A stretch of 59,333 nt of DNA, from assembly GCA_022565795.1 (NCBI GenBank), contig JAIUMA010000009.1, forward strand, positions 24,001 through 83,333, in the 5' to 3' direction. The position numbers and the translations under genes are program-made. Source of the DNA: Balneolia bacterium (GTDB taxonomy: Bacteria; Bacteroidota; Rhodothermia; Balneolales; Cyclonatronaceae). Of this stretch, positions 13,351-26,030 are shown piece after piece (within the stretch, counting starts at the first letter, position 1; every line of letters begins with the position of its first letter). The notes below the pieces were generated by a model. That model did no database searches. It had not been told where the DNA came from and saw only the letters and a list, made by a program, of their open reading frames with translations.

Positions 13351-13389
13351 CCACCTTAATCAAAATTGCAAAAAGCTTTTACCGCTTAT

Positions 13390-16300
13390 ATGGGTGCCAA
13401 ATTTAAAGAAATCAAAAACGTCGATTTTCCAAAGCTCGAACTTGAAATTCTCGAATACTGGAAGAAAAACAATATTTTTGAAAAAAGCGTAACGACCCGC
13501 GAAGACGGAATTCCGTTCACGTTTTATGAGGGCCCGCCAACTGCTAATGGAAAGCCTGGTATTCACCACGTATTGGCACGCACGGTTAAAGATTTGTTCT
13601 GCCGATACAAAACGATTAAGGGCTACCGTGTTAACCGCAAAGCCGGCTGGGACACACATGGTCTTCCGGTGGAAATTGAGGTAGAAAAAAAGCTTGGTCT
13701 TAAAGGCCGTGCTCAGGTTGAAGAGTACGGGATAGCCGAATACAACAAGCACTGCAAGGAAAGCGTGCTTCAGTACAAAGATCTTTGGGATGAACTCACG
13801 CGTCGTATGGGCTACTGGGTTGATCTAAACGATCCGTACATTACTTTTGAAAACCGATACATTGAGTCGGTTTGGTGGGCCCTAAGCAAGCTGTATGAAA
13901 AAGACCTGCTCTACAAAGGCTATAAAATTCAGTGGTATTCACCGGGCAGCGGAACAGTACTGAGCTCGCATGAGGTAAGCCTGGGCTACGAAAACGTACA
14001 AGACCCTTCTGTTTACGTTAAGTTTCGTCTCGATGAAGCGCCGGATACATACTTCCTGGCATGGACGACCACTCCATGGACGCTCATCTCCAACATGCTT
14101 CTGGCCGTAAATGAGAAGCTCGACTATGTGCTCATTCGCGTGAAAAACGATGAAGATCAGGATGAGCACCTGATTGTGGTCAAAGACCGCCTGGAAGTAA
14201 TCGACGGCGATTACGAGATTCTCAAAGAGATGAAAGGCTCCGAACTGGTTGGTAAAACCTATCAGCCGGTATTCGACTACGCCCTTAGAAAGCACGAGAA
14301 AAGTGAGGCGTGGCGGGTGGTCGCGGCCGATTTTGTCACTACTGAAGATGGTACAGGCGTGGTTCATCTTGCCCCTGCTTTTGGTGCAGATGACTTTAAC
14401 GTGTGCCAGCAAAATGATATCCCGCTTTTCAATCCGGTTACAAAAGACGGTACGTTCGGTAATGAAATTGAAGAATATGCGGGCATGTGGTTTAAAGATG
14501 CCGACAAGCATATCACCCGTAACCTGAAAGAGCGCAAGCTGCTTTACAGGCACGAAACCTACCTTCACAATTATCCGCACGACTGGCGCAAAGGAACACC
14601 TTTGATGTCGTATCCGGTAGAGTCCTGGTTTATTCGTACTACGGCCTACAAGGACCGGATGGTTGAGATCAATAAGAACATAAACTGGAAGCCAGAAAGC
14701 ACCGGAACCGGACGATTCGGTACATGGCTGGAAAACAACGTAGACTGGGCCATTTCTCGTCAGCGCTACTGGGGGACTCCGCTTCCGATCTGGATCAACG
14801 ACAATAACCCGGAAGACATCGTTTTTATCGGCTCTATCAAAGAGCTTCGCGAGAAGGCAAAAATTGCCAAAGACAAAGAGCTCGATCTTCACCGCCCGTA
14901 CATCGATGAAATCACATGGGAAGCCGCAGACGGTGGAACCTATCGCCGCATCCCTGATCTGGTTGACGTTTGGCTCGATTCAGGCGCAATGCCGTTTGCG
15001 CAATGGCACTATCCGTTTGAAAACAACCATAAGTTCAAGGACAACTTCCCGGCCGATTTTATAGCCGAGGGGGTTGATCAGACGCGAGGCTGGTTCTACA
15101 CGCTGCATGCGCTGTCAACCATGCTTTTCGACAAACCTGCCTACCAGAACGTGGTATCCAACGGGCTTGTGCTCGATGCCAAGGGTAACAAGATGAGCAA
15201 GAGCAAGGGCAACACCGTCGAACCGTTTGAGGTTATCCGCAATTACGGAGCCGATACCGTTCGCTGGTACATGATGAGTAATACAGCGCCGTGGGAGAAT
15301 CTGAAATTTAGCGAGGAAGGCCTCAAAGAGACTCAGCGCAAGCTTTTCAACACCATCATGAATACCTACTCGTTCCTGGCTATGTATGCCAATATCGACG
15401 AGTGGACCTATTCTGGTACGCCGATTCCGGTGGCCGACCGATCCGAAATGGACCGCTGGATAATTTCCCGGATGTTCACCACGGTTAAAGAAGTAGACGT
15501 ATTTTATGATGAATACGAGCCAACAAAAGCCGCCCGTGAAATCGAGCAGTTTGTAGAGGACCTAAGCAACTGGTACATCCGTCGCAGCCGTCGCCGTTTC
15601 TGGAGAGAAGGCAAGAGTCTGGATAAAACAGCGGCCTATCAGACGCTGTTTGAGTGCTTGTTCAACCTCACCAAGCTTATGAGCCCGCTTGCTCCGTTTT
15701 TCAGCGACTGGCTATACCGTCAGCTCAATTCGGTGCACAAAATTGATGAAGAGTCTGTTCACCTGTCGTTCTACCCCACGGTAGAGGAGACCTCTATCGA
15801 TAAGGCGCTGGAGTACAGAATGCATCAGGCGAGAGTAATCAGCTCTACGGTGCTGCGCATCAGAAACAAGATTTCGATAAACGTTCGCCAGCCGTTGTCG
15901 CGCATCATCCTGCCGACACAGGGCGTGGAGCACCGTGACGCTGTGGAGAGGGTGAAATCCATTATCCTGGATGAAGTGAACGTTAAAAACCTGGAGTATG
16001 TAGATGACGACTCCGGTATCGTTCATAAGAGTGCCAAGCCTAATTATCCCGTCGTCGGGTCGCGTCTCGGCAAGAAAATGAAGGCCGCTGCTGCCAGAAT
16101 TGCCAAACTAAGCAATGAAGAAATTACGACTTACGAAGCAAATGGGAGCATCGAATTAGATATCGACGGAGAGCAGATTACATTCGCAAAAAGTGATATT
16201 TTAGTAACAAGAGACGGTCTCGAAGGTTGGGAGGTAGAAACCGAAGAAGGTGTTACCGTAGCAGCCGATACCACGCTTACTGAAGAACTTATTAGAGAAG

Positions 16301-16557
16301 GTCTGGCGCGCGAAATTGTAAACCGCGTCCAGAATATGCGTAAAGAAGCAGACTTTGAAGTTACAGACCGTATCAGGCTAACCGTAGAAGGCGACGAGCA
16401 GGTTTTAGGAGCTCTCGAAAGCATGGCCGGATACATAAAGGATGAAACCTTAACAGAAGAAATTCACACCATCTCCGACGGAGACGACGACTTCGTTAAG
16501 GAGTGGGACATCGACGATAAAAGCGTAAAAATTTCTATTAAAAGAAAACTTAATTGA
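13390..16557 (+). CDS. ileS: Isoleucyl-tRNA synthetase with GXHH signature
   Basis: Charges tRNA-Ile with isoleucine. From the preferred ATG it has 1055 residues: class I catalytic core with the first signature at residues 57-60 and KMSKS at 601-605, a CP1 editing domain between (including the WTTTPWTL region), then the anticodon-binding and C-terminal domains (FVEDLSNWYIRRSR). The usual HXGH signature reads G-I-H-H: first and third positions are exchanged. This GXHH form is known in a subset of eukaryote-like IleRS2 enzymes and has been linked to extreme mupirocin resistance. Length and C-terminus (no zinc knuckle) also fit IleRS2. The frame is open to a TTG at 13366, but the ATG is the better start. 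dksA-like and lspA genes follow closely and may be co-transcribed. Confidence 0.97.
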   Translation: MGAKFKEIKNVDFPKLELEILEYWKKNNIFEKSVTTREDGIPFTFYEGPPTANGKPGIHHVLARTVKDLFCRYKTIKGYRVNRKAGWDTHGLPVEIEVEKKLGLKGRAQVEEYGIAEYNKHCKESVLQYKDLWDELTRRMGYWVDLNDPYITFENRYIESVWWALSKLYEKDLLYKGYKIQWYSPGSGTVLSSHEVSLGYENVQDPSVYVKFRLDEAPDTYFLAWTTTPWTLISNMLLAVNEKLDYVLIRVKNDEDQDEHLIVVKDRLEVIDGDYEILKEMKGSELVGKTYQPVFDYALRKHEKSEAWRVVAADFVTTEDGTGVVHLAPAFGADDFNVCQQNDIPLFNPVTKDGTFGNEIEEYAGMWFKDADKHITRNLKERKLLYRHETYLHNYPHDWRKGTPLMSYPVESWFIRTTAYKDRMVEINKNINWKPESTGTGRFGTWLENNVDWAISRQRYWGTPLPIWINDNNPEDIVFIGSIKELREKAKIAKDKELDLHRPYIDEITWEAADGGTYRRIPDLVDVWLDSGAMPFAQWHYPFENNHKFKDNFPADFIAEGVDQTRGWFYTLHALSTMLFDKPAYQNVVSNGLVLDAKGNKMSKSKGNTVEPFEVIRNYGADTVRWYMMSNTAPWENLKFSEEGLKETQRKLFNTIMNTYSFLAMYANIDEWTYSGTPIPVADRSEMDRWIISRMFTTVKEVDVFYDEYEPTKAAREIEQFVEDLSNWYIRRSRRRFWREGKSLDKTAAYQTLFECLFNLTKLMSPLAPFFSDWLYRQLNSVHKIDEESVHLSFYPTVEETSIDKALEYRMHQARVISSTVLRIRNKISINVRQPLSRIILPTQGVEHRDAVERVKSIILDEVNVKNLEYVDDDSGIVHKSAKPNYPVVGSRLGKKMKAAAARIAKLSNEEITTYEANGSIELDIDGEQITFAKSDILVTRDGLEGWEVETEEGVTVAADTTLTEELIREGLAREIVNRVQNMRKEADFEVTDRIRLTVEGDEQVLGALESMAGYIKDETLTEEIHTISDGDDDFVKEWDIDDKSVKISIKRKLN

Positions 16558-23330: not shown

Positions 23331-26030
23331 ATGAGCGACTACAAACCATCGGACATAGAGTCTAAATGGCAGCAATACTGGGACAATAACAAAACCTTCA
23401 AAACCGACGACAGCGACCGGAGTAAGCCCAAATACTACGTGCTGGATATGTTTCCCTATCCAAGCGGAGCCGGTCTTCATGTAGGCCATCCGGAAGGCTA
23501 CACGGCTACCGATATCGTGGCTCGGTACAAGCGGATGAATGGTTTTAACGTATTGCACCCGATGGGATGGGACGCTTTCGGACTTCCAGCCGAGCAGTAT
23601 GCCGTGAAAACGGGCACGCATCCCAGAATAACCACTGAGAAGAACGTGAACGGATTCAGAAGGCAGTTGAAGTCACTTGGATTTGGCTACGACTGGGATC
23701 GTGAAATCAATACGACTTCACCGGACTACTTCAAGTGGACACAGTGGATCTTTCTTCAGCTGTATAGCAAAGGACTCGCATATCAGGCCGATGTTGCCGT
23801 AAATTGGTGTCCTGAGCTTGGTACTGTTCTTGCAAATGAAGAAGTGATTGACGGCAAAAGCGAAGTAGGAGGTTTTCCAGTAATCCGCAAGCCGATGAAG
23901 CAGTGGATGCTCAAGATTACCGAATATGCCGAGCGCCTGCTTACCGACCTGGATGATTTGGACTGGCCGGAATCCATCAAGGAAATGCAGCGAAACTGGA
24001 TCGGGAAGTCATCCGGGGCTAACGTCGATTTCGCGGTTAAGGGCATTGACGAAAAGATCTCTGTATTTACAACCCGTCCTGACACGCTTTTTGGCGCTAC
24101 ATATATGGTCCTTGCTCCCGAGCATGAGCTGGTACAGAAAATTGTCGATAGCGGTAAAAAAGAAGAAGTAGACGCCTATCTCAAGGAAACCGAGAAAAAG
24201 TCTGATCTGGACCGAACCGATCTCAATAAAAATAAGACGGGAGTTTTTACCGGAGCGTATGCCGTCAACCCTGTAACGGGTAAGGATATTCCTATCTGGA
24301 TAGCCGATTATGTGCTCATCAGCTACGGAACCGGCGCTATAATGGCGGTCCCTGGTCATGACGAACGCGACTGGGAGTTTGCACAAAAGTTCGATCTGCC
24401 GATAGTTGAAGTAGTAAAAGGAGGGGATGTTACAAAAGCAGCCTTCACCGATACGGCCGATGGCGTAGCCGTTAACTCCACCAACGATGAAATCTCTCTC
24501 GACGGCCTGAAGGTTGATGAGGCCAAGGAGCGCATCACCCTATGGCTGTCAGAAAAAGGACTGGGTGAAGCCACGGTTACCTACAAACTGCGCGACTGGC
24601 TGTTTTCGCGTCAGCGCTACTGGGGAGAGCCGTTTCCGGTCATTTTTGTTGATGGTAAGCCAAAGCCGCTTCCGGAGGATCAGCTGCCCGTAATGCTTCC
24701 TGAGGTTGAAAAATATGAGCCGAGCGGAACCGGAGAGTCACCGCTTGCCACTATTGAAGAGTGGGTGAACACCACGGATCCTGAAACCGGAAAGCCAGCC
24801 CGTCGTGAGACAAACACCATGCCTCAGTGGGCCGGTTCCTGCTGGTATTATCTGCGTTATATTGATCCTGATTATACCGAGGGTCCGGTTTCGAAAGAAA
24901 AGGAAAACTACTGGATGCCAGTCGATCTCTACGTGGGCGGTGCAGAGCATGCCGTTCTTCATCTTTTGTATGCACGATTCTGGCACAAAGTGCTTTACGA
25001 TATAGGCGTGGTGTCTACAAAAGAGCCGTTTCAAAAGCTTGTAAATCAGGGCATGATTCTGGGCGAGATGGAGTACACGCTTTACAGAGGCTCGGACGGC
25101 AATTTCCTTTCACAGGATGATTTAGAGAGCTATGAAGGCGACCTCACCAGAATAAAAGTTACGGCAGAGCAACTTTCCAAGAAGGGTGATGGATTTGTGA
25201 TAAATCCTCAAAATGCCGGCCGGCCTCTCACGGTAATTCACCCTGACGGAAAGCGTGAAGAAAAGAGCGATTACTTTACGGCTTCCGACCTTGAAAATGA
25301 TCTTTATGTTGAGGCGCGATCCTATAAAATGTCGAAATCACGCGGTAATGTAATCAATCCGGATGACGTGGTTGAGCAGTATGGTGCCGATGCGCTGAGG
25401 CTCTATGAAATGTTTATGGGGCCGCTCGAGCAGGTTAAGCCGTGGAGCATGAGCGGCGTTGAGGGGGTATACCGCTTCCTCAAGCGCGTATGGCGTATGA
25501 TTGTGGATGATCGCAGCGGAAACCTGCTTCCTGAAATCGCCGACGTTGAAGCTGCTAAAGCTCAGGAAAAGGCGCTTCATGAAGCCATCAAAAAGGTAAC
25601 CGAAGACATCGAGGGATTTCGTTTTAATACGGGTATATCTGCTCTGATGATTTTTGTGAATGAGGCTATGAAGTGGGAGAAGCGCCCCCTAAGCGTGATG
25701 AATGATTTTCTGCTGCTATTAAGCCCGTATGCGCCTCACCTTGCGGAAGAGCTCTGGCTCAAGCTTGGGAACGAGCCTTCGGTAGCGCATCAGCCGTGGC
25801 CAAAGTATGATGAATCCAAGCTGGTCGATGATTCAAAAACCTATGCTGTTCAGGTAAACGGTAAAGTTCGCGGGCAGATTAACGTGCCGATGGATCAGGC
25901 AAAAAACAAAGACCTTGTTCTTGAGATGGCAAAATCCGAGCCCGGCGTTCTGAAGTATCTTGAGGGTAAAGAACTGGTGAAGGAAATCTTTGTACCGCTC
26001 AAAATTGTGAACCTGGTGGTGAAGGGGTGA
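23331..26030 (+). CDS. leuS: Leucyl-tRNA synthetase
   Basis: 899 residues; charges tRNA-Leu. The class I signatures are canonical: [18 protein letters not shown] (HVGH at 50-53) and [16 protein letters not shown] (KMSKS at 666-670). The CP1 editing domain contains the threonine-rich [14 protein letters not shown] and [16 protein letters not shown] motifs, so proofreading should be intact. The leucine-specific domain and anticodon/C-terminal domains ([11 protein letters not shown]) are present. Unlike ileS in the same window, its HXGH signature is normal. The gene is monocistronic and faces the GH3-family gene across a 313-bp spacer. Confidence 0.97.

Follow-up and report, generated by a model that had tools for sequence, protein, structure and literature searches.

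The first signature motif of class I aminoacyl-tRNA synthetases, HXGH, occurs in two forms among prokaryotic IleRS2 enzymes. Brkic et al. 2023 found G/AXHH in 86 of 163 sequences and HXGH in 77, and inferred at least two origins for G/AXHH (PMC10485003). Motif exchanges in both directions showed that mupirocin sensitivity is set by the motif: the Ki changed by a factor of about 175 to 820, at a modest cost to catalysis. In Deinococcus radiodurans IleRS2 the Ki was 6,600 uM with ALHH and 8.1 uM with HVGH. The change to GVHH raised the Ki from 0.20 to 35 uM in Thermus thermophilus IleRS2 and from 1.08 to 460 uM in Priestia megaterium IleRS2 (PMC10485003). In two enzymes this laboratory swap impaired kcat or KM, by as much as about tenfold. 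The structures revealed a displaced motif, in which the third histidine replaces the first in catalysis and clashes with mupirocin. In IleRS1 the swap abolishes activity, and GXHH is not known from any natural IleRS1; selection of the motif by the antibiotic was favoured by the authors (PMC10485003). The work of 2023 thus showed that the most conserved class I signature can be rearranged and that this change alone makes the enzyme nearly insensitive to mupirocin. The IleRS of Streptomyces griseus possesses the same motif, has a mupirocin Ki of 10 mM and is without tRNA-dependent pre-transfer editing (PMC4861432). The 2023 paper does not mention Bacteroidetes by name in its main text (PMC10485003). 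As its sequence set spans prokaryotes, they are very probably present in its IleRS2 tree.

The ileS gene studied here lies in a window of 59,333 nucleotides, the whole stretch of DNA that was analysed, and its features are collected in the table. The ATG is the likelier start, while an in-frame TTG upstream at 13366 is also possible, and the frame is open to 16557. TIGR00392 covered residues 17-859 of the product with 983.8 bits against a curated cut-off of 621.4. Pfam identified the class I catalytic domain (PF00133), the anticodon-binding domain and the C-terminal domain DUF5915, and its results on this product contained no zinc-finger model, which agrees with type 2, as the zinc-binding part belongs to IleRS1. 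In the PDB comparison the product scored 861-943 bits to bacterial IleRS2 chains, with those of P. megaterium and T. thermophilus as the best matches, versus 370-378 bits to IleRS1. The alignment with P. megaterium IleRS2 took in its C-terminal part as well. Together these matches assign the product to type 2 IleRS. Directly 3' of ileS, on the + strand between 16576 and 17724, a 130-aa frame resembling a DksA/TraR-type protein and a second frame resembling signal peptidase II (lspA) were recognized by eye. The gene order ileS-lspA is a common arrangement.

Table. Features of the ileS gene, and of leuS as internal comparison, in window coordinates.
Feature	Position	Strand	Residues or size	Basis
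ileS, assigned to type 2 isoleucyl-tRNA synthetase	13390..16557	+	1,055 aa, intact	TIGR00392, Pfam, PDB matches
G-I-H-H in place of class I HXGH	13558..13569	+	residues 57-60 from ATG	translation, PDB alignment
TTTPWT of CP1 editing domain, intact	14065..14082	+		read from translation
KMSKS, second class I signature, intact	15190..15204	+	residue 601	read from translation
Anticodon-binding domain PF08264	15451..15903	+		Pfam
C-terminal domain PF19302 (DUF5915)	15958..16545	+	residues 865-1060	Pfam, 218 bits
HVGH in leuS, outside ileS	23478..23489	+	leuS residues 50-53	translation

At the signature position the gene reads GGTATTCACCAC (GGT ATT CAC CAC), coding for Gly-Ile-His-His; counted from the TTG, these are residues 65-68. 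The best PDB match of the product was 8c8w, the GVHH mutant of P. megaterium IleRS2 (943 bits), and GIHH falls on its GVHH column for column without any gap. In the chains 8c8u, 8c8v and 8c9d the same columns are occupied by HVGH, again without a gap. With glycine at the first position, histidine at the third and fourth positions and KMSKS retained, the enzyme has the sequence features of the G/AXHH IleRS2. The preliminary description had reported GIHH instead of HXGH in this IleRS beside a normal HVGH in leuS (23331-26030) of the same window, and translation and alignment bear out both observations. It had also named the right phenomenon, a swap of the first and third signature positions which brings mupirocin insensitivity, described in 2023 (PMC10485003). 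Its view that such enzymes form a minority of IleRS2 was wrong, given the 86 G/AXHH and 77 HXGH sequences cited above. The GIHH of this IleRS is of a kind already known, and it is ordinary for the phylum.

The distribution of the two motif forms was analyzed across related genomes. GIHH was found at the same place in all 20 nearest relatives, whose proteins are 66-93% identical to that of the window. In a sample of the window's class, the GXHH pattern matched in 144 of 146 genomes. The two genomes without a match (G364 and G370) may be incomplete and so miss the gene, or they may differ in sequence upstream of the motif. In the phylum sample, a pattern accepting either form, which required ANG upstream of the motif, matched in 192 of 296 genomes, and all among the matches listed were Gly-x-His-His. 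About a third of the sample thus seemed to be without the motif. The protein served as query against thirty of these apparent exceptions, which were picked to represent the families in question; all 30 possess GXHH preceded by VNG. The absence of GXHH from about a third of the phylum was accordingly rejected as an artefact of the pattern, as VNG replaces ANG upstream of the motif in the 30 genomes examined. An HXGH pattern in the same context matched in none of the 296 phylum genomes. This type of pattern is able to detect HXGH, as it matched GPPFANGLPHYGH in a genome of another phylum. The earlier suggestion that the change could be the mark of an entire clade is correct but too modest, since GXHH is the state of practically the entire class and phylum and occurs in many other phyla as well. 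For the same reason, the motif does not single out the organism of the window. The near-fixation of GXHH across class and phylum is the small addition of this analysis to the published work.

Among the matches listed from named genomes, which indicate the breadth of GXHH and not its frequency, GXHH IleRS was present in Bacteroidota, Actinomycetota, Chloroflexota, Ignavibacteriota, Gemmatimonadota, Bacillota and Planctomycetota. Acidobacteriota, Myxococcota, Patescibacteria, Cloacimonadota, Caldisericota and some gammaproteobacterial MAGs were also represented among them. A FastTree tree of 124 GXHH proteins grouped the window's order and the named Bacteroidota with 100% local support, and the VNG group and Ignavibacteriota came next to them. 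This tree and the gene content point to an origin of the window in Bacteroidota in the wide sense of GTDB, probably close to Rhodothermia/Balneolales. The residue at the X position (L102, L107, L119, L155, L187) was alanine in Streptomyces, serine in another actinomycete MAG, and threonine in Bifidobacterium, Jatrophihabitans and a Thermoflexus. The choice at this position, with Ala, Thr or Ser in some Actinomycetota and Thr in some Chloroflexota, is thus wider than the hydrophobic set Ile/Val/Leu/Met/Tyr of the 2023 legend (Fig. 1; PMC10485003). The GXHH IleRS2 of MAGs labelled Pseudomonadota was found in five gammaproteobacterial bins (L105, L129, L157, L203, L218), and the pattern detected no HXGH IleRS in these MAGs. 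Pseudomonadota are said to use IleRS1. In the tree, L105, L129 and L203 form one clade, while L218, an Oceanococcus MAG, adjoins the window's order. Either gene transfer or mis-binning may explain these cases.

We read the gene as the sole housekeeping IleRS of its organism, of type 2 and with the published G/AXHH motif, in which the third histidine is catalytic and clashes with mupirocin (probability about 0.93). In such an enzyme, the histidine at the third position would take over the stabilization of the transition state from the missing first histidine. The same side chain would clash with mupirocin, and the Ki is predicted to lie between tens of micromolar and the millimolar range, not in the nanomolar range. 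The enzyme itself is likely to be hyper-resistant, a prediction that follows by analogy from the published exchange experiments, the structures and the Ki of the S. griseus enzyme. The Ki values of the two laboratory GVHH mutants, 35 and 460 uM, stop short of the millimolar range; how large the effect is thus depends on the remainder of the enzyme. The literature yielded no usable mupirocin Ki or MIC for Bacteroidota, for this IleRS or for a close relative. One culture study predicts a greater diversity of Bacteroidaceae isolates on medium with mupirocin (PMC13085705), which agrees weakly and not specifically with insensitivity to the drug. In a Gram-negative, resistance of the whole cell would be hard to separate from poor entry of the drug.

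Two other explanations of the motif are very improbable. If GIHH were an error of sequencing or alignment, neither the gap-free alignment with solved IleRS2 chains nor the open frame would be expected, and its recurrence in 20 of 20 relatives at 66-93% protein identity, all of which encode the same residues by different synonymous codons, refutes this reading; its probability is practically nil. The preliminary description had likewise held that the motif is no sequencing or frame effect. The motif could instead reflect a local loss of function, with another ileS serving the cell. The genome of the window (3.59 Mb, 100% complete, 0.16% contamination) possesses only one ileS over the family cut-off; the other matches are far below it, in the way that other class I synthetases would be. 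A pattern accepting both HXGH and GXHH matched in this genome at no place besides the present ileS. The second ileS with HXGH that would have spoken against the preliminary description was thus sought by family and by pattern in the genome and not found. The frame, KMSKS and the editing motif are all intact, and the sole matching IleRS of the relatives bears the same motif. Loss of function is contradicted by these observations and is very improbable.

A different question is what selected the swap. The motif may work as described and still be an old state, near-neutral or useful in catalysis, for example through a link to pre-transfer editing, with the drug insensitivity as a by-product and mupirocin not as the selector. 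GXHH is nearly fixed in a class and a phylum whose habitats differ greatly, and no HXGH was detected there. This argues for such an origin, since selection by mupirocin would hardly be expected to fix the motif in such a range of unrelated habitats. The S. griseus IleRS, which has the same motif and is without tRNA-dependent pre-transfer editing (PMC4861432), points in the same direction. Against it stand the cost of the GVHH swap in two enzymes, which means that the swap is not free unless compensated, and the preference of the published authors for antibiotic selection (PMC10485003). On balance an origin apart from mupirocin is possible, with the odds somewhat against it. Its more specific version is rather unlikely, namely that GXHH is ancestral and fixed phylum-wide, has not reverted in the absence of obvious mupirocin exposure and is kept for catalysis or fidelity, such as altered pre-transfer editing, insensitivity being a by-product. 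The near-fixation makes the question of the selector somewhat easier to test. For this window the motif means little beyond a caution for annotation: GXHH in ileS warrants no flag as an oddity in this phylum, in Actinomycetota and in several others, and it is an inherited trait of a housekeeping enzyme rather than the sign of a resistance gene that was acquired.

Compared with known systems, the IleRS of the window shares with IleRS1 (Staphylococcus aureus 1ffy, P. megaterium 8c9e/8c9f) the identity as a class I isoleucyl-tRNA synthetase, with only 370-378 bits. MupA and MupB are the acquired mupirocin-resistance IleRS of staphylococci. They have the IleRS2 family in common with the window's enzyme, which scored 924.3 and 875.1 bits to their models (NF000257, NF000258), far under the curated cut-off of 1,900, and it was rejected as a member of either. 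Unlike them, this ileS is a chromosomal housekeeping gene with no second IleRS in the genome. The canonical HXGH IleRS2 (T. thermophilus 1ile/1jzq/1jzs, P. megaterium 8c8u/8c8v) share the fold, the order of domains and the sequence around the motif (861-936 bits) but differ in possessing HVGH and in their mupirocin Ki of 0.2-1.1 uM (PMC10485003). The closest likeness is to the G/AXHH IleRS2 that Brkic et al. described in 2023, from which the window's enzyme differs in lineage. As in D. radiodurans (ALHH), S. griseus and the GVHH mutants of P. megaterium and T. thermophilus, positions 1 and 3 of the motif are exchanged and KMSKS is intact.
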